NCBI RefSeq assembly: GCF_030656345.1
Contig: NZ_JAUSNR010000019.1
Span: 248,001-312,000 of the forward strand
Source: Pseudotabrizicola sp.
GTDB lineage: Bacteria; Pseudomonadota; Alphaproteobacteria; Rhodobacterales; Rhodobacteraceae
Direction: 5' to 3'
Length of the DNA: 64,000 nt
In this document: one piece after another, positions 6,318 through 57,336 of the stretch
Numbering within the stretch: the first letter of the stretch is position 1
How the letters are laid out: every line of letters begins with the position of its first letter
Made by a program: the position numbers and the translations under genes
Notes under the pieces: model-generated
Databases searched by the model: none
Told to the model about the DNA's origin: nothing
What the model saw: the letters and a program-made list of their open reading frames with translations, nothing else

Positions 6318-7342
6318 CAGACGGTTTCCGTCACCTTGCGCAGATGCGGCGGCGTGTCGGGGTCAAAGCCACGTCGCCGCGCCAGACCTTCGACAAAACT
6401 GTAAAAGGCGGTTGCCAGCACAAGGGGCGCGACCAGCGGGTGCAGGTCCGGCACCGATGGCAGCAGCGTGGCACCCTGCGACGGCTGCCCGGTCAAAAAC
6501 ACATCGGCCCCCTGACGCGCCAGACGTTCCGCCGTGGTCACCACATGGGGCAAGGCTGCATCCTGCACGCCAAGCGCCAGAACCGGAAACTGGGCCTGCA
6601 CAATCGCGGCGGGGCCATGCAGCACTTCGGCCGCGGAATAGGATTCCGCGTGCAGGCCGCAGGTTTCCTTGAGCTTCAGGGCGCATTCATTCGCGATGGC
6701 AAAGGCAGGCCCGCGCCCCAGCACATAGACCGAATTCGCCCGCGCAAGCCGGGCCGCCAAGGGCGACCAGTCAAGCGCAAGCGCTTTTTCCAGCGCGTGG
6801 GGCAGCGTGTCCAGCGCCCGCAGCAAAGCCGCATCCTGCTGCCATTCGGCCAGCAGCGACAGGCCCGCCAGAACCGAGGTGACAAAGGTCTTGGTCGCCG
6901 CAACGCTGTGTTCGACCCCGGCCTGCAGATCAAGGCAATGGTTCGCCGCAAGACCCATCGGGCTGTTCGCCGAATTGGTGATCGCAACCGACAAGGCCCC
7001 GCCGGTCCGGGCGGCCTGCATCATCTCAACGATATCCGGGCTTTGGCCGGATTGCGAAATGCCGATGCAGACCGCGCCTTTCAGCCGCAACGGGCGACCG
7101 TAGACCGATGCGACGGATGGCCCGACCGAGGCCACCGGCACCCCCGCCAGCAGCTCGACCGCGTATTTCAGATAGGTCGCCGCATGGTCGGACGACCCCC
7201 GCGCAACCGTGATCAGCAGGCCCGGATCAAGGCTGCGCATCGCCGCCGCCGCATCGCGGACGGCTGGCCCGGTCTGGTCAAGAAACCGTGCGGCAGCCGC
7301 AGGAATTTCGGCAACTTCGCGGGCCATCTTGCTCTGCGTCAT
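6317..7342 (-). CDS. nagB-II: SIS-domain glucosamine-6-phosphate deaminase (NagB-II type)
   Basis: A 341-residue protein made of two sugar-isomerase (SIS) domains, without the glutamine amidotransferase domain of GlmS. Sugar-phosphate-binding motifs include ARGSSDHAATYLKYAVE and ISQSGQSPDIVEMM in the first domain and LGRGPAFAIANECALKLKE in the second. Proteins of this shape next to nagA act as NagB-II deaminases, making fructose-6-phosphate from glucosamine-6-phosphate; an AgaS-like role is the alternative. It is the first gene of the minus-strand operon. The 183-base space before the tRNA should hold its promoter, but no specific operator was recognised. Confidence 0.82.
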   Translation of the reverse strand: MTQSKMAREVAEIPAAAARFLDQTGPAVRDAAAAMRSLDPGLLITVARGSSDHAATYLKYAVELLAGVPVASVGPSVASVYGRPLRLKGAVCIGISQSGQSPDIVEMMQAARTGGALSVAITNSANSPMGLAANHCLDLQAGVEHSVAATKTFVTSVLAGLSLLAEWQQDAALLRALDTLPHALEKALALDWSPLAARLARANSVYVLGRGPAFAIANECALKLKETCGLHAESYSAAEVLHGPAAIVQAQFPVLALGVQDAALPHVVTTAERLARQGADVFLTGQPSQGATLLPSVPDLHPLVAPLVLATAFYSFVEGLARRRGFDPDTPPHLRKVTETV

Positions 7343-7525
7343 GGTCTGTTCCTTTCGTCATTCCGCCGTCCGGCACCGCCATGTTGGCATCCGCTGGCCT
7401 GCTCGTTGCACAAGATCCCCGAGAGCTTGCCAAAGCGCAATCCACCATCGTCCCGCACCCCAGACAGCCCCGCGCGTTTAAGTCTTGCAGGAACAGCAGC
7501 GACCGTTTAAGGGACGTGTCGCGTA

Positions 7526-7601
7526 GCCCCAATAGCTCAGCTGGTAGAGCACATCATTCGTAATGATGGGGTCGGCGGTTCGAGTCCGTCTTGGGGCACC
7601 A
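7526..7601 (+). tRNA. tRNA-Thr (anticodon CGT)
   Basis: A 76-base cloverleaf with acceptor stem GCCCCAA/TTGGGGC, D arm AGCTCAGCTGGTAGAGC, anticodon stem CATCA/TGATG around loop TTCGTAA (anticodon CGT, threonine), T arm with GGTTCGAGTCC, discriminator A and an encoded CCA end. Its last 17 bases form most of the left repeat of the adjacent integrated element, and the gene stays intact after integration. Confidence 0.95.
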
Positions 7602-7602
7602 C
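7585..7602 (+). repeat. attL core of the integrated element (18-bp direct repeat)
   Basis: TCCGTCTTGGGGCACCAC lies at the 3' end of the tRNA-Thr gene and recurs exactly at 16869-16886. The sequences diverge immediately outside the 18 bases on both sides. Integration at a tRNA 3' end that restores the gene is the usual behaviour of tyrosine integrases, and an integrase gene begins 16 bases further in. Confidence 0.9.
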
Positions 7603-7618
7603 CCGGCTATAAAGATCG

Positions 7619-8707
7619 TTATTTGTCAAGTTCTTGTCGCCTTCTGTTTCCCTTTTCGGGGCTACCTGTATCCAAATTTGCACCCGGTTCGTTCTCGGCC
7701 ACGCCCATGACAGCGCCCTTGCGGTCAAATTCGCGCTGATAGTGCTGCGCCAATTTCAGCGATTGATGGCCAGTCCAGGCGGCGCTTTGACTGGAGGTGC
7801 CGCCTCCCTCGATGATCGACGCCGCACGGGTTTTTCGCAGCCCATGGGCAGTGGCGTCGATTCCTGCCTCGGTGCAGGCCTTCAACATCATCGTGACGGC
7901 ACCCTTGGCAGACCGTGGCCTGCCGCCCTGCGCCGGCACAAAGCACAGGTGGCCTGCAAAGCCCGCTATTGCGGCCAGCATGGCCTGTCGATCAGCTTCC
8001 CGCGCATACGATGGCAGGGCGCAGCTCCACGGCACATAGGCGCGGTCGCTGGTCTTTTGTTGGCTGAAGATAAGGACCCCGTCGCCATCGACCATTTGCG
8101 GGCCCAGCAGCACAGCGTCGCTGATTCGTGCGCCGGTCCAGTGCAGCAGCTCCATCATCGCGCGCGGACTTGACCCGATAGGCCAGCGGGTGCGGAATTT
8201 GGCAATGTCTTCGTCTGTCCAGCGCCGGTGCCCGATCTTACCCTTGGCCTTCACCGCCTTGGGCATGCGCACTTTCAGCGCCGGGTTCTCGAGAATCAGC
8301 CCGCGCTCCTTGCACCAGGTGCCCCATGCGCGCCACGCCTTCAGGCGGTCGCCCGGGCTGGGGGCCTCGGCCACATCCTTGGTGATATGCGGGTCACGGA
8401 TGGCGCGGGCGCTGACGTGGCCCTTTGCGGCGCAGATCGCGTCGAACTGACGGGCCACCTTAGCGCGGTAGACGGGCGTCCAGCTGGCAAACATGGCACT
8501 TCCGCGCATGGCGCTCCAGGTGCTGGCCAATGTGCCTTGCTTTGGCTTTTCAGCAGGCTTGCCGTCGCGCGCCGCCTCGGCCCACGCGGCGATGAAGTCA
8601 GGGTGATCGTGGGGCAAGTCAGGCAGGGCCACCAGCTTGCTCTTGCCGCCCTTGCGGGTGCGATAGAATGCGCGGCCGTCGCGCGGCTGCACCCATAGCC
8701 CCTTCAT
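7619..8707 (-). CDS. int: Tyrosine-type site-specific integrase
   Basis: A 362-residue phage-type integrase. The catalytic domain shows WTGARISDAV (first arginine), the HGLRKTRAA box (histidine and second arginine), TGHQSL, and a candidate nucleophilic tyrosine in LAQHYQREF. An N-terminal arm/core-binding region precedes it. ATG 8707 is preferred over the in-frame ATG 8734 because it makes a four-base ATGA overlap with the preceding 63-residue gene. The gene ends 16 bases from attL, the standard position. It would catalyse insertion into and excision from the tRNA-Thr 3' end. Confidence 0.93.
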   Translation of the reverse strand: MKGLWVQPRDGRAFYRTRKGGKSKLVALPDLPHDHPDFIAAWAEAARDGKPAEKPKQGTLASTWSAMRGSAMFASWTPVYRAKVARQFDAICAAKGHVSARAIRDPHITKDVAEAPSPGDRLKAWRAWGTWCKERGLILENPALKVRMPKAVKAKGKIGHRRWTDEDIAKFRTRWPIGSSPRAMMELLHWTGARISDAVLLGPQMVDGDGVLIFSQQKTSDRAYVPWSCALPSYAREADRQAMLAAIAGFAGHLCFVPAQGGRPRSAKGAVTMMLKACTEAGIDATAHGLRKTRAASIIEGGGTSSQSAAWTGHQSLKLAQHYQREFDRKGAVMGVAENEPGANLDTGSPEKGNRRRQELDK

Positions 8708-8895
8708 CCTGATAACCCGAACGCTTTGTCGCATTCATCCGTCTCCCTTTCGGCCGAACCAAGCGGCAAGGGTGATAGATCCGGGGAGATTCGGTAAGTC
8801 GTGCCATCGGGGGCCTGAATGGTCACAGCGACACCCGCCTTAACCGCCACCTGGGCGGCGCGATGCAGCTCTGCGGCGGTGACACGGCGCGTCAT
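8704..8895 (-). CDS. Small conserved-looking protein between excisionase and integrase genes
   Basis: A 63-residue protein (MTRRVTAAELHRAAQVAVKA...), linked by ATGA overlaps to both the excisionase gene upstream and the integrase gene downstream, so it is very probably translated. The N-terminal half looks helical; the middle has VTIQAPDGTTYRISPD, a short beta-like segment. No family was recognised. An upstream in-frame ATG at 8928 would lengthen it to 74 residues but overlap the excisionase gene more. Its position between xis and int suggests a role in excision control or simple linkage; this is inference only. Confidence 0.6.
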   Translation of the reverse strand: MTRRVTAAELHRAAQVAVKAGVAVTIQAPDGTTYRISPDLSPLPLGSAERETDECDKAFGLSG

Positions 8896-9092
8896 CCCTG
8901 CAGCCTCTCGGATAGGGGCCTTTGGCACGCTTGGCGCAGCTCATCGACGTGCCATCTTTCGATATGCGAGTCCAGCCAGTGCCCTCGAGGCAGAATGCCG
9001 CCTTGGATCAGGCGGTCAAATTCGTGAAAGGTCAGCTCCAGCAGCTTTGCAGCGGTGCTGCGCGTGACCATGAAAGGCTGCAAATCTGCCAT
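8892..9092 (-). CDS. AlpA/excisionase-like DNA-binding protein
   Basis: A 66-residue protein starting MADLQPFMVTRSTAAKLL. The pattern (basic helix-turn-helix TRSTAAKLLELTFHEFDRLIQ followed by GGILPRG and a C-terminal WHVDELRQA segment) resembles short winged-helix excisionase/AlpA-type regulators that bind att sites. ATG 9092 is supported by a GAGG ribosome-binding site about eight bases upstream; the longer frame to 9188 would run through a stable hairpin and is unlikely. It is the first gene of a three-gene ATGA-coupled run ending with the integrase. Confidence 0.65.
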   Translation of the reverse strand: MADLQPFMVTRSTAAKLLELTFHEFDRLIQGGILPRGHWLDSHIERWHVDELRQACQRPLSERLQG

Positions 9093-9171
9093 CGCACATC
9101 CTCGAAGAAATAAGCGTCCGGTCATTGCGACGGTGCCGCAACGCTGTTCCGGCAGGAACGGGGTCAGGGGA

Positions 9172-9201
9172 CCGGAAGGGCGGCTCAAATCGCCCTTCCG
9201 G
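9172..9201. terminator. Stable hairpin after the protease-capsid gene
   Basis: CCGGAAGGGCG and its exact reverse complement CGCCCTTCCGG are separated by eight bases (11-bp stem). It lies 117 bases beyond the capsid-fusion stop and before the excisionase start. No T-run follows, so it is either an mRNA-stabilising or attenuating hairpin or a Rho-assisted terminator separating structural genes from the xis-int run. A second, shorter inverted repeat (GGTTGGC/GCCAACC) is at 9211-9240. Confidence 0.5.
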
Positions 9202-9317
9202 CCTCTTGTGGGTTGGCTGCCTCTGGCAAGAGCGCCAACCTACGGCGGGTGTTTTAAGCCACCGCCCGCTGGGCCATAGGGGACAAAGAGCGCGAACCCC
9301 TATTCCGTCGCTGGGGC

Positions 9318-11456
9318 TTATGCCCCGGCGTTCTTGAAGCCGCCCCGGAAGTCGATTGCTCCGCAGCCAAAATCCAGCTCGACAGACCACGCCATGCCCT
9401 GTTGGCCGAACGGCTCATCCATGCGCATCCGGGGGCCTTCCTCGCCCTCGAGGAAGCCGTAGACAAAGCAGGGGGCCGCGCTGGGGTCGGCAAAAACATA
9501 CCAGGCATTGCCGGTGATCTTCGCCGTGACCACTACTTGCAGCTTGCCCGCAAAGGGATTGACCTTGCCCGATTCGTTGGCGGTGATATCGGCCACAAGC
9601 TGCAGGGCCTCGAGCTCCTTATCCGGCCCGACCAGCAGGATTGCAGGCGTCAGCTCGAGGTCTTCGCCATCAAGCGATTTGCGCTTGCGCAGTGGAGCCC
9701 ATGCCGCCCCCAGAGACGTCAGTGACAGCGCTGCTGCCGTGCCGGCCTTGCTCAGATCCGTGGTATTGAAAACCTGACGGCCGGTCTGCAACAGGGTAGG
9801 GCCATCGCCCCCCGCCCCGGACAGCATCATCTCGTAAAAGATCTTGTCCTCGAATGCCGCAACCGCACGGCCCCGTTCGGACAAGATACGGTCAACCACG
9901 CCCAGATCGTCATCAATCAACATCTGGCGGGAAAGGCGGAACTGCTTGGCATAGGCCAGAAGCAAGAGCGATTCCTTGCTCTCCGAAATCGTTCCAGCCT
10001 TGATCTCGCCTGTTTCAGATACCCGCTCGAGCATCGGAAAATCACCAACACCCACAACCGAATGGGGGCGGAAGTCGCGGAATGGTCGCTCATCGGCAAT
10101 CAAGCGGTAGCTCGAGGGGGCTGCGTCATAAGAATTGCGCAGCGACTTGTTCAACGCGTTTTCAAAAACCGCCGGGAAGTCGGAAGTGCTGTGCGACCCC
10201 AAGCCCATTTCAATCACGCGCTGCCGATCGCCCGCGGTGCGCAGGCTCCCGCGGTGCCCGATATGGGTCGCCACCATTTCGGGAAAGCTCATGCCCATGT
10301 ATTGCTGCGCCGGCCCGCTGACTTGCTTTGCGCCGGTCATGCGTGCGACCAGTGCGCTGGTCATCCCGATCCGCATCGTGGTGCCCTGATCCTGCCCGCC
10401 AAACCGGTTCCACGGCGTATTGTTCCGGATATGACGCGTCAAGGGCTGCTCTTGTGCCTCGCGAGCAACGACCACTTCCACGGCCTTTTGCAGCGCGGCA
10501 TTCAGCAAAAGCCCCTTCGCTTTTGCCTGTGCAGGGGTGTCCTCTTGCTCATCATCTTCCGGGTCTTGCTCACCGAATAGCTGCGTTGCGATTTCCAGCA
10601 CGATGTCAGCAAGGTCATCGGCTTTGCCGGTAGCATCGACCAGATCCTTGATCCGCTGAAACAAGGTCGCCTGCGTGCCAGGGTGCACTCCTTCCACCAT
10701 CAGGGGGAAGAATGCCGTCAGCATTTCCGCGTTTGCGGCCTTGTTCCCCTTACCCCGGATAGACGCCAGCACCTTCGCCTGCAGCTGCGCAGACGGGGCC
10801 TTCCGGCCATTGTGATCCAACATGTCGAAACTCCTGTCTGTTTCATCAGGCGAAGCGGTCGCCCAACCGTTATTGCGCGCCAGCGCCACCAAGCGCTGGG
10901 GGGCATTGTGCAAGAGGCTCAGATCAAAGGCGGACGGCTCTGCGGCTTGTTCGTCATCAAGGTCATCACAGAAGCCTGCGGCCAGTGCTGCCGCGCCGTC
11001 GAAGTAGGTTTCGGCCCGCATGATCTCGCGCGCGGCCTCGAACGTGATTCCGGCCCGCTTGGCGTAGATCACGGCATAGGCATTGGCACAGAGGGCAAGA
11101 CTATCCGCTGTGCGACGGTGTTCATCCTCAGTGCCGCGCCCCTCGACGTAATCCGTTGCCGGGTCATGGATCATCAGAATCGAGCCATCAAGCATCGTGA
11201 TCCGGTCGCCTGCCATAGCAATCAGGCTTGCCGCCGATGCAGCTAATCCGTCGATGATAACGTGTTTTTCGCCGTTATGGCTGCGCAACAGATTGTAGAT
11301 TGTCTGACCGTATGTTGCGAAACCACCTCCCGAATTGATCCGAACGGTTATCGGCCCCGGCATGCCCGCCAAGTTATCCCGCACGGTCGAAGGCGTGAAA
11401 AATTCCTCGCCGAAACAGGACTCCCCGACCGAACCATAGAGGTAGAGAGTGTTCAT
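9318..11456 (-). CDS. ClpP-like prohead protease / major capsid protein fusion
   Basis: A 712-residue fusion. Residues 1 to about 190 are a ClpP-fold (S14) protease: INSGGGFATYGQTIYNLL, a nucleophile in DGLAASAASLIAMAG (about Ser75) and a histidine in ILMIHDPATD (about His98). A helical, acidic linker (about 200-340) resembles an HK97 scaffolding delta region, including the DDEQED stretch. Residues 350-712 look like a Mu/HK97-type major capsid protein (SFPEMVATHIG, FPAVFENALNKSL, the long SLTSLGAAWAPLRKRKSLDG region, and a C-terminal VELDFGCGAIDFRGG). In phages the protease trims the scaffold and matures the shell. GTG 11459 is an alternative start. The start codon overlaps the upstream stop (TGATG). 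Confidence 0.82.
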   Translation of the reverse strand: MNTLYLYGSVGESCFGEEFFTPSTVRDNLAGMPGPITVRINSGGGFATYGQTIYNLLRSHNGEKHVIIDGLAASAASLIAMAGDRITMLDGSILMIHDPATDYVEGRGTEDEHRRTADSLALCANAYAVIYAKRAGITFEAAREIMRAETYFDGAAALAAGFCDDLDDEQAAEPSAFDLSLLHNAPQRLVALARNNGWATASPDETDRSFDMLDHNGRKAPSAQLQAKVLASIRGKGNKAANAEMLTAFFPLMVEGVHPGTQATLFQRIKDLVDATGKADDLADIVLEIATQLFGEQDPEDDEQEDTPAQAKAKGLLLNAALQKAVEVVVAREAQEQPLTRHIRNNTPWNRFGGQDQGTTMRIGMTSALVARMTGAKQVSGPAQQYMGMSFPEMVATHIGHRGSLRTAGDRQRVIEMGLGSHSTSDFPAVFENALNKSLRNSYDAAPSSYRLIADERPFRDFRPHSVVGVGDFPMLERVSETGEIKAGTISESKESLLLLAYAKQFRLSRQMLIDDDLGVVDRILSERGRAVAAFEDKIFYEMMLSGAGGDGPTLLQTGRQVFNTTDLSKAGTAAALSLTSLGAAWAPLRKRKSLDGEDLELTPAILLVGPDKELEALQLVADITANESGKVNPFAGKLQVVVTAKITGNAWYVFADPSAAPCFVYGFLEGEEGPRMRMDEPFGQQGMAWSVELDFGCGAIDFRGGFKNAGA

Positions 11457-12013
11457 CACCGCTCCCCGCGTCCAATGCTGACATTGTAGGCGGCCCGCGT
11501 TTCGATTTGCGGAATGTCAGCGGCTTCAGGTAGCCCCATTTCATGGGCACGGGCAGCAACGAGGCGCGCGGCAGCCGAAGCGTTTGCAGCGATAACGCGC
11601 ATGAGACGGGATTTGTCGCCATACTCTTTCGCAGTCGCTTCAGCGTCGACCGCAAGTTCGATCATTGTCCCAGCGACAAAGAAAGTATGAAACGCGTCGT
11701 TGCCTTCGCCAAGGTCGGGATCATGGATCAGCGCCGCCCCAACCCAGAGATCAGCAGCACCCGGGTTTTGGTTGAGGGGATGGACCATCAGCTTATCGGT
11801 GCCACTCGCGACAATCTCGGAGGCCTGATCCATGGACACACCGCCCTGTGTCATCAGGTCGAGGAAAAGCCGCAGGTCATAGGCATTTTCCAAAGTGTAG
11901 TTCGCGGGTGGCACAGGGGCGGGAAATGGGAGCTTGTCGCGAAAGACATAGTGATCGAACCTGCGAGGATCGACATCGACACAGAACGCTATCGCGGCTC
12001 GCTTCATTTTCAA
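11456..12013 (-). CDS. Hypothetical phage protein with possible MerR-like N-terminal DNA-binding region
   Basis: A 185-residue protein. The N-terminus (AIAFCVDVDPRRFDHYVF, then YTLENAYDLRLFLDLMTQGGVSMDQAS) has the spacing of a MerR-type winged helix, where a helix-turn-helix is followed by a wing and a second helix pair. The rest has no recognised motif but is acidic and alanine-rich. It is coupled by a one-base stop/start overlap to the protease-capsid gene, so a role in packaging or head-gene regulation is possible. Function unknown; the MerR comparison is weak. Confidence 0.55.
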   Translation of the reverse strand: MKMKRAAIAFCVDVDPRRFDHYVFRDKLPFPAPVPPANYTLENAYDLRLFLDLMTQGGVSMDQASEIVASGTDKLMVHPLNQNPGAADLWVGAALIHDPDLGEGNDAFHTFFVAGTMIELAVDAEATAKEYGDKSRLMRVIAANASAAARLVAARAHEMGLPEAADIPQIETRAAYNVSIGRGER

Positions 12014-12094
12014 TTCTCCTTTTACAACGTTTGGTATATTGCATGGCGCGACCCTGGTGCACTGTCAAGAATTTTTACAATATGGATTGTAAGA

Positions 12095-12688
12095 TTACGC
12101 CAGCTCCCGCGCTGCATCCAACGCCGCCTCAAGCGCACTGGCCTTTGCCAACGTGGCTTCTATAACGGAAACAACGGGTTGCCCCTTCGGGCCGATCAGG
12201 CAGACCATTTTGTCAAGCGCCTGCGCCAGCCCGACCAGGACCACCGCTTCCCGGTAGCACTCGTTCAGCTCGTCGTCCAAAACCCGGGGGCTGTTCATAT
12301 CCCAACTCGCCTCGCCGCGCGTCAGGTTCATGCAGGCGGTGTCGAAGTCTTGCGGCACCACCGTGAAATTTACGCTCAGCACGATGAACAGCTCGGCAAG
12401 ATCAACCGCCGTAATCTGGGGGCGCTTTTCAATCTCGGCCTCAAGCCGGTCAAATTCCTTGCACAGCCGTTTATACTCGGCTGAGTCCTCGTCTTGCACA
12501 GCGTTGAGCTGCGAATGGCAAAGCTGCCACTCCCGAAACAAGCGTGATGGTCCCGAAGGATGTGGCGCAGGCGAATGGGCCCTTGGCAAACCTGCGTCAC
12601 TCACTGTTGCGCGGCGGGGGCCTTTAGTTGGCTTGCGAGCGCCCAAAGCAGCATCGTTCACCGAGTCGGTGTTATGGATCTTGTTCAT
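12095..12688 (-). CDS. Hypothetical protein of the integrated element
   Basis: A 197-residue protein. Residues 1-50 are polar, proline- and serine-rich and probably disordered. Residues 55-90 (LCHSQLNAVQDEDSAEYKRL...) look like a coiled-coil hairpin. The C-terminal part is alanine-rich and helical. No family was recognised. It sits first in the minus-strand run that continues through the 185-residue gene to the capsid fusion, downstream of the Arc-type regulator at 12766. It could be a scaffold or a terminase-like small protein, but nothing in the sequence shows this. Confidence 0.5.
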   Translation of the reverse strand: MNKIHNTDSVNDAALGARKPTKGPRRATVSDAGLPRAHSPAPHPSGPSRLFREWQLCHSQLNAVQDEDSAEYKRLCKEFDRLEAEIEKRPQITAVDLAELFIVLSVNFTVVPQDFDTACMNLTRGEASWDMNSPRVLDDELNECYREAVVLVGLAQALDKMVCLIGPKGQPVVSVIEATLAKASALEAALDAARELA

Positions 12689-12765
12689 TAGATGATACCT
12701 TAATCAGACATGGCTACGCCGTTCCCCGGCGCGGGGTTATTCCGATTTGGCTGGTCTTTTTAGGT

Positions 12766-12927
12766 TTAGGCTTTGGCGGTTTGGGGCAGGGCGCGCCGGT
12801 CGATTTCGGCTAGGATGATCCGCACCACTTCGCTGTTCATCGAAGCGCCGGTCTTGGCGGTTTCAGCCTCGAGCCATGCTTTGACGTTCGTGGGCAAGCG
12901 CAATTGGAGGGGCTTTCGATCGGTCAT
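12766..12927 (-). CDS. Arc/MetJ-type ribbon-helix-helix DNA-binding protein (minus strand)
   Basis: A 53-residue protein, MTDRKPLQLRLPTNVKAWLEAE followed by TGASMNSEVVRIILAEIDRRA. The LQLRLP beta strand followed by two helices with the GASMNSEVV turn is the classic Arc fold. ATG 12927 is chosen over the 91-residue frame to 13041, because the extra N-terminal sequence is simply the translated operator repeats (ARCH repeated). Its promoter region carries three GGCACCGTGCC palindromes shared with the divergent gene at 13029, so it is likely an autoregulator or a partner in a two-repressor switch. Confidence 0.75.
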   Translation of the reverse strand: MTDRKPLQLRLPTNVKAWLEAETAKTGASMNSEVVRIILAEIDRRALPQTAKA

Positions 12928-12941
12928 TCTATCACCTATGT

Positions 12942-13009
12942 GGCACCGTGCCCGCCATGTGTGGCACCGTGCCTGCATTTCGTCAAGCGCGAAGTTGTGG
13001 CACCGTGCC
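12942..13009. promoter_or_regulatory. Three copies of palindromic operator GGCACCGTGCC between divergent Arc-type genes
   Basis: Exact copies of the 11-bp palindrome (GGCAC-C-GTGCC) lie at 12942-12952, 12963-12973 and 12999-13009, each preceded by TGT. Start-to-start spacings are 21 and 36 bases. The 21-base step equals two helical turns, fitting cooperative binding of Arc-type dimers on one DNA face. They fill the 101-base gap between start codons 12927 (minus) and 13029 (plus), the layout of a bidirectional lysogeny-type switch. Confidence 0.75.
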
Positions 13010-13028
13010 TCAAAATTCAGGAATCGCC

Positions 13029-13364
13029 ATGGCAGCCCCAACAGCCCGAGACAGTGAAAAGTTTGTTTTGCGACTTCCGGACGGAATGCGTGATCGGATC
13101 AAGGCAGTTGCGGATCGAAACAACCGTTCAATGAATGCGGAAATCGTTGCCGGTCTTGAATATCTCTATCCTGCATCGGGGCCTGACCTGACCGCGTTTG
13201 CGGCCTTCATCCGAAGTGTAGCGCCGCACCTGATCACACCCGCCTATGCAGATCACTTAGCCTTCACGCTTAGCGAACGTGCGACGGAAATTATTGCCGA
13301 AGAATACAAAGCCGATAAGCGAATGAAGGTCGAAGAAAACGAAATCAAGCCTGCGAAGTCCTAA
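13029..13364 (+). CDS. Arc-type ribbon-helix-helix DNA-binding protein (plus strand)
   Basis: A 111-residue protein with an N-terminal Arc domain: SEKFVLRLPDGMRDRIKAVAD, then NNRSMNAEIVAGLEYLY. The C-terminal 60 residues (TAFAAFIRSVAPHLITPAYADHLAF...) are helical and could mediate oligomerisation. ATG 13029 follows the third operator by 19 bases; the frame upstream to 12948 is only translated operator sequence. It is the only plus-strand gene in the element, so it is a good candidate for the master repressor acting on both directions. Its stop overlaps the convergent 94-residue gene by four bases. Confidence 0.78.
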   Translation: MAAPTARDSEKFVLRLPDGMRDRIKAVADRNNRSMNAEIVAGLEYLYPASGPDLTAFAAFIRSVAPHLITPAYADHLAFTLSERATEIIAEEYKADKRMKVEENEIKPAKS

Positions 13365-13645
13365 GCCTCGCCCTGCGCTGGCATCTCGCTCAGCCCGTTG
13401 CTGTCGATCGACCGCGCCGCCCGCTCCACCAGATCCGCGTTCTGCCGCAGGTATCGCGCCGCCGTCTCTGGCCCAAGGGCCACCACAACCCGCTCCAGGA
13501 CGGTGCGGAACATCACATCCACCACAGTCAGGTAGTCAATGCCGTGATCGCGGGCCATCCTGACGGTCAGCTCCAGTGTTTGGACCTCCACCAGGTGGGG
13601 GCCGACAAGCGCCGTAGCGCCTTTCTCAGGGGTCTCTGCGGTCAT
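13361..13645 (-). CDS. Hypothetical small protein downstream of the tape-measure gene
   Basis: A 94-residue protein (MTAETPEKGATALVGPHLVE...). It is predicted mostly helical, with no membrane segment and no recognised motif. It follows the tape-measure and 41-residue frames on the minus strand and ends convergently against the Arc-type gene. Small genes in this place in tailed phages are often tail-assembly proteins, but no sequence feature proves that here. Confidence 0.5.
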   Translation of the reverse strand: MTAETPEKGATALVGPHLVEVQTLELTVRMARDHGIDYLTVVDVMFRTVLERVVVALGPETAARYLRQNADLVERAARSIDSNGLSEMPAQGEA

Positions 13646-13648
13646 CGG

Positions 13649-13774
13649 CTACGTCTCCCGGTCAAAAATCGGCGCAAGGCCATCCAGCGGCCCGATGCGG
13701 GCCGCTGCGTATGTTTGGGCGCTATCCGCGCCGCACCTTCTGAGGGCGCGCGCCAAATCGGCCCATAGAGCCAT
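13649..13774 (-). CDS. Possible 41-residue small protein overlapping the tape-measure 3' end
   Basis: An open frame MALWADLARALRRCGADSAQ... begins at ATG 13774 inside the end of the tape-measure gene and stops four bases before the next gene. The tight packing makes translation plausible. However, overlapping high-GC frames occur by chance, and the longer version up to 13846 is just an alternative frame of the tape-measure gene. Function unknown. Confidence 0.3.
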   Translation of the reverse strand: MALWADLARALRRCGADSAQTYAAARIGPLDGLAPIFDRET

Positions 13775-15410
13775 CGTGCCGCCCCTTGGCCAGCTGATCA
13801 CCCACGACGACGCGCACCATCTCTTCGCCGTTGGGGCCGCGCTCACGCTCTTCCCGGACCGGCTGGCCCGAATTGTTGATCACGTTCACCACGGTCCCTG
13901 CACCCCCGCCGCCGCCACCGGCAGCCCGAACCCCCAGCTTGCCGCCGATCCGGGTCAGCGGCATGATCGCCTCTGGTCCTGCCTCGCCCATCAGGCCGGT
14001 GCCGCCGCGCATTGGGAACATGGTTGGGCTGCTGACCACGCCACCAGCGGCAAAGGGGATCACCCGGCCACCACCGAATGCGTTGCCGTTGGCATTGGCC
14101 AAAAGCGGGATAAACCCCTCGGCGCCGAACGTGCCAGGTAACAGCCGCGACAGCAGGCGGAAGCTGGATTCCTGCAGCGCCATGGACAGCAGCTTTTTGC
14201 CCAGACCCTCGATCACCTCCCCGGCCTTGCCGCCGCCCTCGACGATCGAATCAAACAGCGCCGTCATGCTGCCCTTGATCTGTCCCGCCACGCCCTGGGC
14301 AAACTTGTTGGCGCTCTCAAACTCTGACCGCAGGGTGGCGGCCTTGCGGTTGTAGGTCTCCTGGTCGATTGCCCCCTGCGCCATCAGCTCATTGAGCTTG
14401 GCCATCTGCGCCGCATAGCGCTCAGCTGCGGTGCGGGTTTCGTCAAAGATCTTCTTGCCCTCTTCCACGGCCTTGTTGACCGCGCTGCCACCGCCGCCGC
14501 CCCCTTTACCCCCGCCCGTCGCATTGGGCTTGCCAGGGTCGCCGGTCGTGATGTCCTTGAACGTGGTCGCCATCGCCTCTTCGGTTTTCGAAATGGCAAG
14601 CCCCGTCAAAGTCGCCTCCGCACGAAGGCGGCGCATGTCCAGAAGTCGCTCCTTGTTTTGCCTCATCGCTTCGTCAAGCACCTGCTGCGCCTGTCCATCC
14701 GGACGGCGCACACCTGCCAGTCTGTAAGCGGCCTCTGCCGCCGCATCGCCCGTGTAACCGCTGGGGCCGCTGCCGACCTCTTCGGCCACGCCAAGCGCCT
14801 TCTGATAGTCTTTACGAAATTTCCCCTCGTTCTCCCTCAGCTCTGCCGCCTGTGTCCGCCCGCGCGTCTTAAGCAGCTCTAGTTCGAGCGCCAGCAGCTG
14901 CTTGCGCGCGTCAAACTCCGCCTGCGAATTTGCGATGACCAGGCGGGCCGCCTCGGACGATGCGCCGCCCTGCGAATTTATGGTATCGACATAGGTGCGC
15001 TGCACCGCCTCGAGCGCAGACACAGCGCCATTGACGGCACCGATGGACCCTTCGGCCTGCTTCATGCCTGCCGCCATCTCAGCGGCCCCCTTACCCCCCG
15101 AGAACAGCAACGGCACCAGCGTGGCCATGCCCGCCGCGATAATGCCCACGGGTCCGCCAAAGGCTGCCCCGGCCATCGCTGCGCGGCCCAGGCCCGAGAC
15201 CAGCGTGGCGGTCGCAGGCGCGCCGCCTGCTACCGCTCCGAACATCATCGCGGCTTCCCGTCCCACCTGCTGGAAGACGGGCGACAGGTTGCGCCCGCCC
15301 GCCGCAATCATCTGCATGGATCTGGCACCATCGCTACCGGCGGTGCGCAGCTCGCTGCGGAACTGGCTGCCGCCTACCACGGCCAGCCGAACAGAAACTT
15401 GGTCGCTCAT
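13722..15410 (-). CDS. Phage tail tape-measure-like protein
   Basis: A 562-residue protein. The N-terminal half has alanine/glycine-rich hydrophobic helices (GRAAMAGAAFGGPVGIIAAGMATLVPLLF is split across about residues 72-103) and a long helical coiled region (about 140-280). A glycine linker (about 300-315) follows. The C-terminus carries the signature of lambda-type tail length proteins: FAAGGVVSSPTMFPM, then GLMGEAGPEAIMPLTR and VVNVINNSGQ. It is short for a tape measure, implying a short tail or internal deletion. Start and stop of the upstream 232-residue ORF and this gene overlap by ATGA. Confidence 0.75.
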   Translation of the reverse strand: MSDQVSVRLAVVGGSQFRSELRTAGSDGARSMQMIAAGGRNLSPVFQQVGREAAMMFGAVAGGAPATATLVSGLGRAAMAGAAFGGPVGIIAAGMATLVPLLFSGGKGAAEMAAGMKQAEGSIGAVNGAVSALEAVQRTYVDTINSQGGASSEAARLVIANSQAEFDARKQLLALELELLKTRGRTQAAELRENEGKFRKDYQKALGVAEEVGSGPSGYTGDAAAEAAYRLAGVRRPDGQAQQVLDEAMRQNKERLLDMRRLRAEATLTGLAISKTEEAMATTFKDITTGDPGKPNATGGGKGGGGGGSAVNKAVEEGKKIFDETRTAAERYAAQMAKLNELMAQGAIDQETYNRKAATLRSEFESANKFAQGVAGQIKGSMTALFDSIVEGGGKAGEVIEGLGKKLLSMALQESSFRLLSRLLPGTFGAEGFIPLLANANGNAFGGGRVIPFAAGGVVSSPTMFPMRGGTGLMGEAGPEAIMPLTRIGGKLGVRAAGGGGGGAGTVVNVINNSGQPVREERERGPNGEEMVRVVVGDQLAKGRHDGSMGRFGARPQKVRRG

Positions 15411-16105
15411 TTTGTTGCAATCCTTTCAGAAGTTGCACGGCTGTAATGATTGTTGCAGTGTTGCACCCTTTGAAAAACCTGCAACAGTGAAGCAAACACG
15501 CTTTGCAGCACCGTATACAGATCGCCCCGGAAGGACCCGGAAAGGGGGGCACCTCGACCAGATGGCGCTTGGCCCAGGCCAGACCCGGGCAATCTGGGCA
15601 ATAAGGGCAGCTGCGTCCCGGCTGCAGTCCCTATATTTTGTGCCAGTGTGGGCTTTACATCTATATATTGATTTTCTGATGATCTGGCAGGGAGGATAGG
15701 GAGGATGAATGCCAGATCAGGGAGGATCTTTTTCGAAAAGGCTGTTTCCACAACCTGTTGTTTCACAACAACAAACAACCCTTTCAGGGAGGATAGGGAG
15801 CATAGGGAGGATATTTTACAACTAACGCGTAAGAAGCTCTTTACCCCATGATCGCTGTCAGGCTGGCAGACTGCCACACTTCTGCGCGCGCGCGCGCCCG
15901 TGCATAGGTTGAAAAGATCCTCCCTATGCTCCCTATCCTCCCTGAGCCGCCGTAAGGCTTGGAAAGCATTGGCACAATTTCCCCCGCACCCCCGTGCAAC
16001 ATCCTCCCTGATCGAGGGTCTATCCTCCCTATCCTCCCTGCTTTCACCGAAAAACGGGTGAAGGGCGGGGGCAAGGCGGTGATCCTTGGCCGATCGGCGC
16101 GTCAT
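15407..16105 (-). CDS. Repeat-containing ORF of unknown function (232 residues)
   Basis: The ORF starts with an ATGA overlap on the winged-helix gene stop and ends with an ATGA overlap on the tape-measure start, which argues for translation. The peptide is odd: REDRED and REDREHRED near the N-terminus, SLCSLSSLKG in the middle, then ILPDLAFILPILP. These are different-frame readings of the same DNA nonamer present in both orientations. No family was recognised. Either a gene has been invaded by repeats, or the frame is maintained because stops are absent from the repeats. Confidence 0.4.
   Translation of the reverse strand: MTRRSAKDHRLAPALHPFFGESREDREDRPSIREDVARGCGGNCANAFQALRRLREDREHREDLFNLCTGARARRSVAVCQPDSDHGVKSFLRVSCKISSLCSLSSLKGLFVVVKQQVVETAFSKKILPDLAFILPILPARSSENQYIDVKPTLAQNIGTAAGTQLPLLPRLPGSGLGQAPSGRGAPLSGSFRGDLYTVLQSVFASLLQVFQRVQHCNNHYSRATSERIATK
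15688..16040. repeat. Array of 12 AGGGAGGAT nonamers in two inverted groups with a 28-29-bp perfect hairpin
   Basis: Plus-oriented copies begin at 15689, 15698, 15719, 15786, 15795 (AGGGAGCAT variant) and 15804. Minus-oriented copies occupy 15917-15925, 15926-15934 (same C variant), 15935-15943, 16001-16009, 16022-16030 and 16031-16039. The triplet at 15785-15812 is the exact reverse complement of 15917-15944, including the variant base, with 104 bases between that include a (GC)7 tract at 15884-15897. The first cluster is enclosed by GATCTGGC (15681) and GCCAGATC (15711). This is not a CRISPR: units are nine bases and mostly without spacers. Confidence 0.85.
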
Positions 16106-16761
16106 ACCTGCACCCCGACGCCGGCCAGCTCGCTCTGGCTCACCAGTCCAAGCCTGATCATTTCTCTGCCCATGGTTGGTTTGATGGCGCTGGGCGGGAT
16201 AAATTTTCCCTTCCTTATTTTCTCAGCCCAAAACCTCGCCATGCCGTCGCCTTCGTCAGGCTCGCGCGCACCAGGTTCTCTTACAGGTTCTCTTACAGGT
16301 TTGTGTCCGGCGGGCCGGACACGGGATTCGGCCAAAATCGGACACGGGATTGCCCCTAAATCGGACACGGGATTGCTCGGCTTTCCGTGTCCGGTTTCCG
16401 GACACGGCTCATCTGAATTCAGAGGCATTTCCGCCTGATCCGAACCTTTAGCATCCTTCGATTTCAGAGCCTCAAAACCGTCCTCGAATGCGAACATGTA
16501 TCGGGTCGGCTTCTGCTGCCGCGTCTTGGGGTCGATCTGCCGAACACGTCGGATCAAGCCTGCGGCCTCAAGGGCGGCAAGATGGACGTTCAACTGCGAC
16601 CGCGACACTTCACAATCTGCGGTCAGCCGCCCCTGCGATGGAAAGCAGCCCAGGTCAGGGTTGTGACGGTCGGCAAGGTGGAACAGCACCAGCTTTGCAC
16701 CAGCGGTCAGACCCATGCCAAGCCCGGCCCCAATGGCCCATGATGTGGCTTTGTGGCTCAT
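16102..16761 (-). CDS. Winged-helix (phage replication O-like) DNA-binding protein
   Basis: A 219-residue protein. Residues 1-95 form a helix-turn-helix/winged-helix region: SHKATSWAIGAG, then AKLVLFHLADRHNPDLGCF, PSQGRLTADCEVSRSQLNVH and LAALEAAGLIRRVRQ. The middle is low-complexity (CPETGHGKPSN..., PVREPVREP from a 12-base tandem repeat at 16273-16296) and contains the iterons described separately. A C-terminal region (GMARFWAEKIRKGKFIPPSAI) follows. The domain plan resembles lambda O-type initiators, whose genes also contain the origin. ATG 16761 is preferred to the TTG at 16785. It is first in the minus-strand run that includes the tape-measure gene. Confidence 0.65.
   Translation of the reverse strand: MSHKATSWAIGAGLGMGLTAGAKLVLFHLADRHNPDLGCFPSQGRLTADCEVSRSQLNVHLAALEAAGLIRRVRQIDPKTRQQKPTRYMFAFEDGFEALKSKDAKGSDQAEMPLNSDEPCPETGHGKPSNPVSDLGAIPCPILAESRVRPAGHKPVREPVREPGAREPDEGDGMARFWAEKIRKGKFIPPSAIKPTMGREMIRLGLVSQSELAGVGVQV
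16303..16407. repeat. Iteron cluster inside the winged-helix gene; candidate replication origin of the element
   Basis: CGGACACGGGATT occurs exactly at 16316-16328, 16339-16351 and 16362-16374, a constant 23-base period; the last two share 19 bases (AAAT and GC flanks). They are framed by inverted copies: GTGTCCGG/CCGGACAC at 16303-16322, and a perfect 10-bp hairpin CCGTGTCCGG/CCGGACACGG at 16385-16407. That gives six CGGACAC units in 105 bases. An AT-rich stretch lies at about 16199-16233 on the downstream side of the gene, the place of the unwinding region in lambda-type origins. Confidence 0.6.
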
Positions 16762-16868
16762 GCCGCCACCCGCTCGCGCTTCCAATCGCGTGTAAGCCCT
16801 TGATACTTGGTAAGCCGGTTCGCCTCCACTTTTGTGGAGTTATCCAGCAATTTCAGGCGTTGCGGGGC

Positions 16869-16886
16869 TCCGTCTTGGGGCACCAC
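16869..16886 (+). repeat. attR core of the integrated element (18-bp direct repeat)
   Basis: An exact second copy of TCCGTCTTGGGGCACCAC, matching the tRNA-Thr 3' end at 7585-7602. No tRNA body precedes it, so it is a duplicated fragment left at the far end. Between the winged-helix gene and this repeat (16762-16868) only a small hairpin (CTCCAC/GTGGAG at 16824-16839) is visible. Confidence 0.9.
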
Positions 16887-16950
16887 GCGCATCCTCCGTT
16901 TCGTTTATTTGGCAGGTCACCACCTGCGGCGGGCAAGCTGCCCGCGCCGG

Positions 16951-18420
16951 TCAGTCCGGGCGGGGCTGGGTTGGGATCACCTCGGCGTCTTCTGCTGTCG
17001 ATGCTTCAGGCGGCGGCTCTACAGGCTCTGGCTCGATGGGTGCGGGCTGGCCGACAATCAGCGGCAGCAGTTCGGTGCCCGTGGCGCTTGGGCCCGTCGT
17101 TTCGGGTGGTTCGCGCCAGCTGAGCGTGTCGAACCCGCCGCAATTGTCGCAGATCGGGTGCCAGGTTGCGTGGATGGCCTGACACTTGTCGCAGCACCAT
17201 TGCGGGCCGCGCGGGGCGGTCAGGGCGCGGGTCAGCCAGCCACGGACGACGGAATCATCCTCACCCTCGCCTCGCGCAATGGCGGCCATGATGGCCAGCG
17301 ACCTTTGCGTCGGATGGGTGGTGACGATGTCGCCAAGGTCGCGCCGGGCGGCAGGGAAATCTTCGGCGGACACGTGAAGCTCGGCCAACAAAAGCCGGGT
17401 CTGCTCATGGTCACGCTGAACATCGGTCAGCGCCCGGAACCGCTTGATCCGTTCGACCGGCGTTTCGGTCGGCTCAATCTCGGCAAAGGCGGCGGCCAGA
17501 TCGGGGTGCGGATGCACCGACCACGCTTTTTTGAGCACACGGGTGGCACCCTTGCGGTCGCCCTTTGCCACCAGCCCGCGTGCCGCCATGGCGGCGGCGG
17601 GAATCAGGTCGGGGGACAGGCGGTTTGCTTCGATCGCGGCTTCGCGCGCCTCGATGCTGGCGGTGTCGTCGATCACGGTCTTCGCCTCTTGCAGGGCCAG
17701 AACGGCGTCGCGGCGGCGGTAGACATCGCGCGGCAATTCGCCGGCCTTCAGCTTGGCACCCAGCGTCAGGCGCGCACCCTTCCAGTCGGCGCTTTCGGCC
17801 TGCAGTTTCAGCAGGATATCCTGCGTTTCGGCATGGCGCGGCTTCATCGCAAAGGCCTTTTCGGCCAGCTTCAGCGCCATATCGGTATCACCCTCGGCCA
17901 GCTTCTGCTTCATCAGGCCCCGGACGCCGACAAAGCGGGTCTTGTCGTCGGACAGCAGCCGTTTGTAGGCATCGGAAGCGCGCTTGGTATCGCCCGAGGC
18001 TTCGGCCGATTGCGCCATCAGCAGAGTGGTCAGTTCCGGTTTGGCCAGATAGCGTTCGGCCCGCTGCGCCCGCGCCATGGCAACCCGGCCTTCGCCAGAA
18101 GCAAGGGCAAGAAAGCCTTCGGTCAGCGCCTGATAGCCCTTACGTTCCCGGTTGCGGTCGAAATAGCGCGAGATGGCGGTTTCGTCGCCGGACAAAAAGC
18201 GCAGGACGGCCACCAGAAAGCTGACAATCTTGAACACCACCCAAAGGGCAATGATCAGCACCAGCGTCAGGATGACCGACTGCAACGGCCCAAGGGTAAA
18301 TTCCCAGCCCGCAACGGCGACCCGGATGCCGCCGCCGGTTTCCAGAAGCACACCTGCGCCAAAGGTCAGCGCCGCAATGAAACAGACAAACAGAACGACT
18401 TTCAGCAATGTCCAAAGCAT
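16951..18420 (-). CDS. hemY: HemY-like membrane protein with TPR region and C-terminal zinc-ribbon motif
   Basis: A 489-residue protein. Two N-terminal membrane segments (about residues 3-22 and 42-70) are followed by the HemY_N region with SGDETAISRYFDRNRERKG and a long TPR-like helical repeat region (about 100-370). Near the C-terminus CDKC and CDNC pairs (about residues 418-437) form a zinc-ribbon-like motif, then a proline-rich tail. The gene lies with hemD and the mitofilin-like gene as in many alphaproteobacteria. HemY of this type is not the protoporphyrinogen oxidase of the same name; its exact role in haem metabolism is unsettled. Confidence 0.85.
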   Translation of the reverse strand: MLWTLLKVVLFVCFIAALTFGAGVLLETGGGIRVAVAGWEFTLGPLQSVILTLVLIIALWVVFKIVSFLVAVLRFLSGDETAISRYFDRNRERKGYQALTEGFLALASGEGRVAMARAQRAERYLAKPELTTLLMAQSAEASGDTKRASDAYKRLLSDDKTRFVGVRGLMKQKLAEGDTDMALKLAEKAFAMKPRHAETQDILLKLQAESADWKGARLTLGAKLKAGELPRDVYRRRDAVLALQEAKTVIDDTASIEAREAAIEANRLSPDLIPAAAMAARGLVAKGDRKGATRVLKKAWSVHPHPDLAAAFAEIEPTETPVERIKRFRALTDVQRDHEQTRLLLAELHVSAEDFPAARRDLGDIVTTHPTQRSLAIMAAIARGEGEDDSVVRGWLTRALTAPRGPQWCCDKCQAIHATWHPICDNCGGFDTLSWREPPETTGPSATGTELLPLIVGQPAPIEPEPVEPPPEASTAEDAEVIPTQPRPD

Positions 18421-51443: not shown

Positions 51444-52715
51444 ATGACCGTAGAACGTTTGAATCTCGCTGATCTGAAAGCCAAGACCCCGGCCGACCTG
51501 CTGGCGATGGCTGAAGAATGGGAGATTGAGAACGCGCCCAGCATGCGCAAGGGCGAGATGATGTTCCAGATCCTGAAGGAACATGCGGAAGAAGGGTTTG
51601 AGATCGGCGGCGATGGCGTTCTTGAGGTGCTGCAGGACGGATTCGGGTTTCTGCGCAGCCCGTCGGCGAACTATCTGTCCGGCCCGGATGATATTTATGT
51701 CAGCCCCGAGATGATCCGCCAGTTCAGCTTGCGGACAGGGGATTCGATTGAAGGGGTCATTCAGGCCCCACGGGAAAATGAGAAGTATTTCAGCCTGATA
51801 AAGGCGACCAAGATCAATTTTGATGATCCGGAGCGGGCAAAGCACAAGGTGCATTTCGATAACCTGACGCCCCTGTACCCGGATGAGCGGTTCAAGATGG
51901 AGGTTGAGGACCCTACGATCAAGGATCGTTCGGCCCGGATCATCGATCTGGTGGCACCGATCGGCAAAGGGCAGCGCGCGTTGATCGTTGCACCGCCACG
52001 AACGGGTAAGACGGTGCTGTTGCAGAACATTGCGCATTCGGTAGCGACCAACCATCCCGAATGTTATCTGATTGTGTTGCTGATTGACGAGCGGCCCGAG
52101 GAAGTGACCGACATGCAGCGGAGCGTGAAGGGGGAGGTTGTGGCCTCCACCTTTGACGAGCCGGCGACGCGGCACGTGGCCGTGGCGGAGATGGTGATCG
52201 AGAAAGCCAAGCGGCTGGTCGAACACAAGCGCGACGTGGTGATTCTGCTGGATTCGATCACCCGTCTGGGACGCGCGTTCAACACGGTTGTGCCGTCGTC
52301 GGGCAAGGTTCTGACCGGCGGTGTGGATGCCAATGCGCTGCAGCGGCCGAAGCGGTTCTTTGGTGCGGCGCGCAATATCGAAGAGGGTGGTTCGCTGACG
52401 ATTATCGCGACGGCTTTGATCGACACCGGCAGCCGGATGGATGAGGTGATCTTTGAAGAGTTCAAGGGCACCGGCAACAGCGAGATTGTGCTGGACCGCA
52501 AGGTGGCCGACAAGCGGGTGTTCCCGGCGATCGATATCCTGAAATCGGGCACGCGGAAGGAAGATCTTCTGGTTGAGAAGACCGATCTGCAGAAGACCTA
52601 TGTGCTGCGTCGTATCCTGAACCCGATGGGCACGACCGATGCGGTTGAGTTCCTGATCACAAAGCTGAAGCAGACCAAGTCGAATGCCGAGTTCTTCGAG
52701 TCGATGAACACCTGA
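51444..52715 (+). CDS. rho: Transcription termination factor Rho
   Basis: A 423-residue hexameric RNA helicase. The N-terminal helical domain starts [20 protein letters not shown]. The RNA-binding cold-shock-like domain has [20 protein letters not shown]. The Walker A is [20 protein letters not shown], and the secondary RNA site has the [22 protein letters not shown] motif (split around Gly). ATG 51444 has GAAGGA upstream; an in-frame start at 51426 is less likely. Many gene ends here lack T-run terminators, consistent with heavy use of Rho. Confidence 0.96.
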
Positions 52716-52738
52716 GTGTCCTGAACAGAGGCCAGAGC

Positions 52739-54016
52739 ATGACGGACACGATATTTGCGCTGGCCACGGCCCGCGGCAAGGCGGGTATTGCTGTTGTAAG
52801 GGTGTCTGGCCCGGCTGCGCTTGAGGCTGCTGCTGCGCTTGGGGTTCATGGGCTTGTGCCACGGCAGGTGGCGTTGCGGCGGTTGATGGTTGGTGAAGAT
52901 CTTCTGGATGACGGGCTTGTCCTGTTCTTTGAAGAGGGAGCGAGCTTTACCGGCGAAAAAATTGTTGAATTTCAGATACATGGGAGTGAAGCCGTTGTTG
53001 CGGCGCTGTTGGCGTTTCTGGCCGGGGTGCCTGATCTGCGCTTGGCCGAACCGGGTGAATTCACCCGACGGGCGCTTGAAAATGGCAGGCTTGATCTGAC
53101 GCAGGTTGAGGCGCTTGCCGATCTGATCGACGCTGAGACGGAAGCTCAGAGACGACAGGCGCAGCGGGTTTTGGCGGGGGGGCTTGGCCAGCGGGCGGCC
53201 CTCTGGCGCAAGGATCTGATCCGCGCGGGCGCGTTGATTGAAGCGACCATCGATTTTGCGGATGAAGATATTCCTGTCGATGTTATTCCCGAGGTCTGTG
53301 ACATTGTGGAGCGCCTGTCGCGCGCATTTGCGGATGAAATTGACGGCAGCCGGAGTGCTGAGCGTGTCAGAGCGGGATTTGAAGTCGCGATCACCGGCGC
53401 TCCGAATGTTGGAAAGTCCAGCCTTTTGAATGCGTTGGTCGGAAGAGATGTTGCGATAACGTCTGCTGTCGCCGGGACGACGCGCGATATCATTGAGGTC
53501 AGGATGGATCTGGGCGGACTGCCTGTCACGTTGCTTGACACAGCGGGTCTGCGCGAGGCGACGGATGAAGTCGAACGGATTGGCGTGGAGCGGGCGCGGG
53601 AGAGGGCACGACTTGCCGATCTGCGCGTGCTTTTGCTTGAGCCTGGCGACACGGCACCGGATGACAGCGCCGATATCATCGTCTGGAGCAAGGCAGATAT
53701 TGCACCCGGACCGCGCTCTGTCTCCGGCCACACGGGCTATGGCCTTGATGGGCTTATCGAGGATATCCGGACACGCCTTCAAGGCCGCGTCTCGGGTTCC
53801 GGGTTGCTGATCCGTGACCGGCATCGCTCGGCGCTGGCTTTGGCCAGCGAATCCATGGCGTCTGCGCGCAAAGCTTTGTATGCTGTAGATCCGTCACTCG
53901 AGTTGGTTGCTGCTGATATCCGGTCTGCGGGCCATGCGCTGGATCTGCTAGTGGGTAAAATCGGAGTCGAGACCTTGCTGGACGAGATATTCAGCAGTTT
54001 CTGCATTGGAAAGTAG
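52739..54016 (+). CDS. mnmE: tRNA modification GTPase MnmE
   Basis: A 425-residue dimeric GTPase. The N-terminal folate-binding domain opens [20 protein letters not shown] and includes [11 protein letters not shown]. The G domain has G1 [15 protein letters not shown]2 [12 protein letters not shown] and G3 [13 protein letters not shown]. The C-terminal CxGK is CIGK. With MnmG it adds the carboxymethylaminomethyl group at U34. It ends two bases before a parS-like site that covers the mnmG start. Confidence 0.95.
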
Positions 54017-54019
54017 GAG

Positions 54020-54035
54020 TGTTTCACGTGGAACA
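54020..54035. promoter_or_regulatory. parS-like site 1 (one mismatch), over the mnmG start
   Basis: TGTTTCACGTGGAACA differs from the consensus parS TGTTTCACGTGAAACA by one base. It starts four bases after the mnmE stop and covers the mnmG start codon region. ParB should nucleate here, weaker than at the two exact sites. Confidence 0.8.
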
Positions 54036-57320: not shown

Positions 57321-57336
57321 CGCAAAAGGAAGAGTT

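Follow-up and report, generated by a model that had tools for sequence, protein, structure and literature searches.

A 9.3-kb element in a Pseudotabrizicola tRNA-Thr gene reads as a probable phage satellite with phage-type capsid, tape-measure and origin-like parts

What kind of element encodes a head and a tail-length protein with no detectable genes for packaging DNA? The question is raised by a 9.3-kb insertion in a tRNA-Thr gene of Pseudotabrizicola sp. (Rhodobacteraceae), which lies within a 64,000-nucleotide stretch of contig NZ_JAUSNR010000019.1 (positions 248,001 to 312,000; hereafter the window). An earlier note, made from the letters of the window, proposed a phage-parasitic element or a remnant kept for capsid and tail parts. 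Our analysis favors the first of these: with a probability of about 0.58, the element is an integrated phage satellite that would be served by a helper resembling Nostoc phage Nsp-JY21, through the mechanism proposed below. This reading is based on a family of elements marked by the protein p185, unoccupied insertion sites in sister genomes, relatives of comparable length that lack packaging genes, and an origin-like repeat array that lacks its primase. Features are collected in Table 1; genomes, contigs and loci are cited by our own handles (G, C and L numbers).

The element is bounded by exact copies of the 18-bp tRNA 3' end (TCCGTCTTGGGGCACCAC; attL and attR) and measures 9,284 bp from repeat start to repeat start, which agrees with the exact repeats and the 9.3 kb of the earlier note. 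Among eight sister genomes fetched, alignment of both flanks revealed an unoccupied tRNA-Thr site in two (G011 and G009), where the right flank picks up 80 and 29 bp past the tRNA, respectively; the remaining six gave no alignment on both flanks and are uninformative on this point. No RNA family besides the tRNA was found in an Rfam scan of positions 7300-17100. Elsewhere in the window, rho, mnmE, gidA and parB (51444-58251) suggest a location near the chromosomal origin.

Eleven protein genes were considered, ten of which were scanned as open reading frames (ORFs) with Pfam, PHROG and NCBIfam, the plus-strand Arc-like gene lying outside those scans. No terminase, portal, connector, lysis or HNH family was found among the ten, and a tblastn search of the element with 14 queries (large and small terminase subunits TerL and TerS, portal, adaptor, decoration, primase and RepA) gave no match. 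As a control, tblastn of the related G120 element recovered TerL, portal and adaptor and missed the G120 TerS, so the absence of a diverged TerS from our element is less sure. With that reservation, the earlier statement that terminase, portal and lysis genes are missing held up, and the profile scans supported its integrase, protease-capsid fusion, tape-measure and winged-helix genes, the last being the O-like initiator, together with the minus-strand Arc-type gene (weakly in Pfam). The plus-strand Arc-type gene is recognized through homologs at other loci. The AlpA-like call is a weak match, with homologs in satellites L133 and L134 and in phage Mel-JY03. Judged by the features that define capsid-forming phage-inducible chromosomal islands (cf-PICIs), the element has its own major capsid protein with protease and an integrase; portal and head-tail connectors, TerL, HNH endonuclease and TerS were not detected, the tblastn test for TerS being a weak one.

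The link to satellites comes from p185, which matched nothing in Pfam, PHROG or NCBIfam but has a homolog in G301 (37% identity) at the same position, at the start of the capsid gene. A two-row profile located p185 in 10 of 394 Rhodobacteraceae genomes, the window's genome counted. A match in G304 (E = 8e-6) lay outside any satellite context and was set aside, so that nine usable loci remained: the window, G301 and seven others. All nine hold an integrase and a capsid gene. TerL occurs together with portal in three of them (G120, G166 and G207, which also have TerS and adaptor), and a portal is present in G176, where a contig end cuts the locus. The other five lack both TerL and portal: the window, G052 (in which TerS is present), G128, G301 and G357, with the element ends of G052 and G357 not placed. 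Where ends could be placed, lengths were 9,284 bp in the window, 9,664 bp in G301, 9,682 bp in G128 and 10,154 bp in G120. An element of a different lineage in G289 (about 9,750 bp with a 14-bp repeat; L059:1393-11160, tRNA-Cys) pairs an unrelated capsid family with a tape-measure protein, a D5 primase and an integrase; it gave no TerL or portal match, and one of its small proteins is weakly TerS-like (E = 0.002). These five elements, that of G289 being of another lineage, span 9.3-10.2 kb. The earlier note had asked whether its genes recur at the same tRNA with the same 8-10 kb length; the kin with a tRNA adjoining the integrase use tRNA-Arg, -Pro or -Cys rather than tRNA-Thr.

By definition, p185 family members carry p185 ahead of a capsid, protease or portal gene and an integrase at the element end, and the window shows both, in the family-type order integrase, AlpA-like gene, capsid, p185. 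Its capsid departs from a further family trait in not falling on the satellite side of the capsid tree. The divergent Arc pair is common to the window, G357 and G052. The predicted structure of p185 (mean predicted local distance difference test score, 87) combines a MerR-type helix-turn-helix (HTH) with an alpha/beta part; its best match among solved structures was the MerR-type regulator CvkR (E = 2e-3), none reaching 1e-3 or better, and a viral structure library gave no match. The HTH protein at the equivalent place in G016 was not significantly similar to p185. A scan of viral contigs found no p185, and genome contigs yielded none with the single protein and one by alignment (L129, in the same sequence context as G301). 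Among the relatives, the G128 integrase reads as two ORFs, so that this copy may be damaged, and a GmrSD-type restriction gene adjoins the replication gene of the G128 satellite (L135:6283-7977).

The second line of evidence is an array of 12 exact AGGGAG(G/C)AT units in two inverted arms (15689-16039), with no further units in the window; a 15-mer scan of the window gave six matches against 0.01 expected. By blastn, the array matched both Nsp-JY21 and Synechococcus phage Sc-Yong805-1 (76.5% identity, 82% of the query covered, E = 8e-41). Three other phages gave weaker matches, and the match to one Acinetobacter phage was at chance level. The unit spacing is 9,21,67,9,9,113,9,9,66,21,9 in the window and 9,21,67,9,9,111,9,9,66,21,9 in Nsp-JY21, the sole difference being 2 bp at the center. 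Mel-JY03 and Pan4 keep two and three exact units, respectively, and in all three annotated phages the array adjoins a primase gene. Among 33 viral loci with an 18-mer of the array, a D5 primase lies within 500 bp in 23 and at 634 bp in one; the remaining nine had no primase call, some being cut near the array and one (L163) coming from the contig that also gave L079, which does have the primase. In Mel-JY03 the annotated terminase and capsid are both of another type, yet the primase-array pair is the same, and the array is therefore read as a probable replication origin rather than a packaging site. The alternative of a pac or cos site is disfavored on the strength of Nsp-JY21 and Mel-JY03, in both of which the array adjoins the D5 primase; Pan4, which also has the pair, does not enter that argument. 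The exact 18-mer occurs in two of the 394 genomes, the window's and G162, where the locus matches primase, TerS, TerL and portal. In the element, tblastn gave no D5 primase, and a search of the host genome that had no control of its own was likewise empty. A dense direct-repeat array of the G301 satellite (L097:10308-11172) had no comparable phage match.

The structural genes also point to phages. In a capsid tree of 40 rows, the capsids of 17 loci taken to be satellites from their genes, some of which were not traced to their ends, fell on one side with support of 92/96, which is under the tool's star threshold. The window capsid lies inside the phage clade (support 100/100), next to those of IMG/VR phages L067, L068 (identical here) and L070 (95/96; 57-59% identity). 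Its best matches among phage records are shared by Paracoccus phages and phages recorded from cyanobacteria, L191 (PP438413) and OP858991; the true hosts of the latter may be alphaproteobacteria in the cultures. The tail tape-measure protein (TMP), whose reading frame is open, is a mosaic: residues 1-408 are 53% identical to Nsp-JY21 (55-59% over 1-300 and 48% over 301-400), and past residue 400 identity is 26-36% to Nsp-JY21 versus 58-64% to a G201 prophage. It matched the RcGTA-type model at 6.3e-33 but scored 114 bits, where the curated cut-off is 220. Its length is 562 aa, compared with 546 aa in Nsp-JY21 and 663 aa in G201; the idea of a tail shortened relative to G201 was dropped because Nsp-JY21, to which the N-terminal part is closest, has 546 aa.

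Taken together, the element would be a chimera that joins a satellite p185 and gene order to a phage-type capsid gene, TMP gene and origin-like array, and it is probably a real, functional satellite. In the proposed mechanism, an Nsp-JY21-like siphophage would infect the cell and supply a D5-type primase-helicase that fires the copied array. The helper would further provide portal, terminase and most tail proteins, while the protease-capsid fusion of the element would build heads matched to its genome of roughly 9.3 kb, and the element's TMP would enter a chimeric tail that is otherwise helper-made; p185 and the Arc pair would regulate the element. A phage-type capsid fits the missing portal, as the head must accept that of the helper. 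More tentatively, and at somewhat less than even odds, the element may be a satellite rebuilt from its helper, with the helper origin but not the gene for the protein that fires it and with helper-type head and tail-length genes, so that the helper would copy as well as pack it. It may then stand at one end of a series of capsid satellites from which portal and terminase were lost.

The helper may have to come from outside the cell. The phrog_15 terminase was not found in the host genome (4 of 14 control genomes were positive), and a phrog_2 search found two terminases, the first within an RcGTA-like cluster and the second within a prophage that, judged by eye from its genes, looks Mu-like. 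These two loci correspond to C30 at about 209-266 kb (Mu-like prophage) and C23:366-384 kb (RcGTA-like cluster) of the host genome (G000). Because neither terminase locus matches the element's module, the expected helper is an infecting phage; the Mu-like prophage is a possible helper, unmatched to that module.

Several observations weigh against the satellite reading. The element is known here from sequence alone, no packaging site was identified in it, and it has its own O-like gene, so that helper-driven replication is something we infer. The AlpA-like gene and the Arc pair are found outside satellites (in Mel-JY03 and at L118, which has no p185 or capsid match, respectively), and the family claim therefore draws mainly on p185 and gene order; the integrase, too, has relatives among prophage integrases. 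In G301, G128 and G357, a single noncoding stretch per genome gave no comparable phage array. Pairwise ratios of nonsynonymous to synonymous substitution rates (dN/dS) of 0.30-0.47 mix phage history with any selection inside the satellite, as the searches turned up no close relative of the element as a whole. Finally, capsid, TMP and array are all phage-type, as expected of a remnant.

A remnant could have arisen as a deletion derivative of an Nsp-JY21- or G201-like prophage that by chance retained a few structural genes together with the origin. The earlier note had held that close relatives carrying the same genes inside a full-length prophage with terminase and portal would point this way, and we found part of that picture: relatives of the capsid, TMP and integrase occur in full prophages, and the G201 prophage holds all three plus a portal. 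Array and TMP are also adjacent with the polarity of Nsp-JY21, if everything between them was lost, and AlpA-like and Arc genes also occur outside satellites. A defective prophage should nonetheless keep the gene order of a full phage wherever nothing was deleted, and the element, transcribed in the order rep-array-TMP-...-capsid-int, reverses the capsid-...-TMP order of Nsp-JY21. Moreover, p185 recurs in satellites, where p185 and capsid form a unit, and had no match in phage records; the main ORFs are open; and the length agrees with four other elements. We therefore consider a deletion derivative unlikely. Parasitism of the RcGTA-type gene transfer agent (GTA) of the host can be given very little credence. 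The TMP match to the RcGTA-type model and the host's RcGTA-like cluster would suit it, but the best TMP relatives are phage-borne (546 and 663 aa), the host GTA-type TMP has 218 aa, and the capacity of a GTA head is far below 9.3 kb.

The capsid and TMP could also act as decoys that poison assembly when a phage infects, without becoming part of satellite particles, which would make the element an interference island. The TMP gene has the Arc pair on one side and the replication gene on the other, a slot taken by an unrelated gene in G357, and the restriction gene of G128 stands beside its replication gene; tail-assembly inhibitors are known in satellites (PMC11364771). We regard this role as improbable given an open integrase, att repeats, a replication gene, an origin-like array and a full-length capsid with its protease.

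Read as a satellite, the element resembles several known systems in part. Like cf-PICIs, it is integrated and has an integrase and its own capsid with protease, to which its weakly matched AlpA-like gene may be added, and its p185 kin in G120, G166 and G207 carry TerS, TerL, portal and adaptor. By definition, however, cf-PICIs encode portal, connectors, both terminase subunits and HNH (PMC10690885), none of which was detected here, and they average 14 kb, compared with 9.3 kb, and are listed mainly from other bacterial groups (PMC10803314). The element is thus not a cf-PICI, though it may work partly like one. The chimeric-tail model is borrowed from phage-inducible chromosomal island-like elements (PLEs) of Vibrio cholerae, whose TMPs are built into satellite virions alongside tail components of the phage; putative tmp genes have also been reported, in a figure legend, for some cf-PICIs (PMC12987554). 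Compared by description, PLEs differ in hijacking a phage capsid and encoding a tail chaperone, whereas our element encodes a capsid. P4-like satellites and PICIs share its size, near 10 kb (PMC10803314), and the reliance on helper packaging proposed for it; unlike it, they redirect a helper capsid with scaffold-type proteins (PMC10690885) and do not bring a capsid protein. Nsp-JY21, and Sc-Yong805-1 with the same matches, share relatives of the array, capsid and TMP but are full phages, in the case of Nsp-JY21 with primase, terminase, portal and tail genes, and G201, with related capsid, TMP and integrase, is a full prophage. Satellite TMPs and capsid-forming satellites have already been published. 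The literature covered, seen in part, mostly without subscription papers and without the original cf-PICI paper, describes no capsid-encoding satellite that lacks portal and terminase and no satellite with a helper-type origin that lacks its primase.

Table 1. Features of the element and its insertion site, in window coordinates
Feature	Position	Strand	Basis
tRNA-Thr (CGT), insertion target	7526-7601	+	ARAGORN; Rfam RF00005
attL, 18-bp tRNA 3' end	7585-7602	strandless	exact repeat
Tyrosine integrase, 371 aa	7619-8734	-	Pfam PF00589 Phage_integrase 3.6e-11
74-aa ORF bordering the integrase	8704-8928	-	phmmer: small homologs upstream of related integrases (L089, L090, L093, L095)
AlpA-like HTH gene	8892-9188	-	weak PHROG HTH match, E 0.049
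ClpP-like protease/major capsid fusion, 713 aa, phage-type	9318-11459	-	Phage_capsid_4 6.4e-47, CLP_protease 1.8e-16; tree
p185, 185 aa, MerR-like, satellite-family marker	11456-12013	-	profile search, predicted structure
p197	12095-12688	-	weak likeness to p185-adjacent gene in L097, E 0.004
Arc-like gene, half of divergent pair	12766-13041	-	Pfam weak, 0.0052; PHROG up to 9e-6
Second Arc-like gene, divergent partner	13029-13364	+	homologs in L134, L132, L118
p94	13361-13645	-	nothing in Pfam, PHROG, NCBIfam, phage records
TMP, 562 aa, mosaic of two phage types	13722-15410	-	RcGTA-type model, PHROG tape-measure families
12-unit inverted AGGGAGGAT array, phage origin-like site	15688-16041	strandless	repeat scan, blastn vs phages
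O-like replication initiator	16102-16785	-	HTH_36 3.5e-11; PHROG replication families
attR	16869-16886	strandless	exact repeat of attL

The remaining genes add detail to this picture. The nearest relatives of the O-like gene are in a Labrenzia phage (43.5%) and Rhodobacter phages (42-46%). p185, p197 and p94 had no match among 50,697 phage records, and no defense family was found in searches of the TMP, p94 and p197. Kinship of p94 with a small gene near terS in kin produced a marginal profile match (E = 0.024) and is not claimed. A 232-aa ORF (15407-16105) spans the repeats, but the codon model does not call it; it looks like a chance ORF, which makes the apparent ATGA coupling between the winged-helix gene and the TMP gene doubtful. 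Of the tight couplings on which the earlier note had relied, two are present in the sequence: p185 and the capsid gene overlap at a TGATG, and the 74-aa ORF and the integrase meet at an ATGA. In G055, a 563-aa ORF (L044:5548-7239) joins an N-terminal TerL part to a C-terminal portal part, which may be a natural fusion or the product of a deletion or of the assembly.

For the Rhodobacteraceae, p185 marks a graded series that runs from a full packaging set through TerS only to capsid only, and this series lets one ask what a capsid-bearing satellite must encode at minimum. The element adds a case of a satellite carrying a tape-measure gene, and its phage-type capsid in a genome that has no portal predicts heads that would accept the portal of a helper. 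Because the shared cis-acting site ties the element to a particular phage group, that helper can be searched for.

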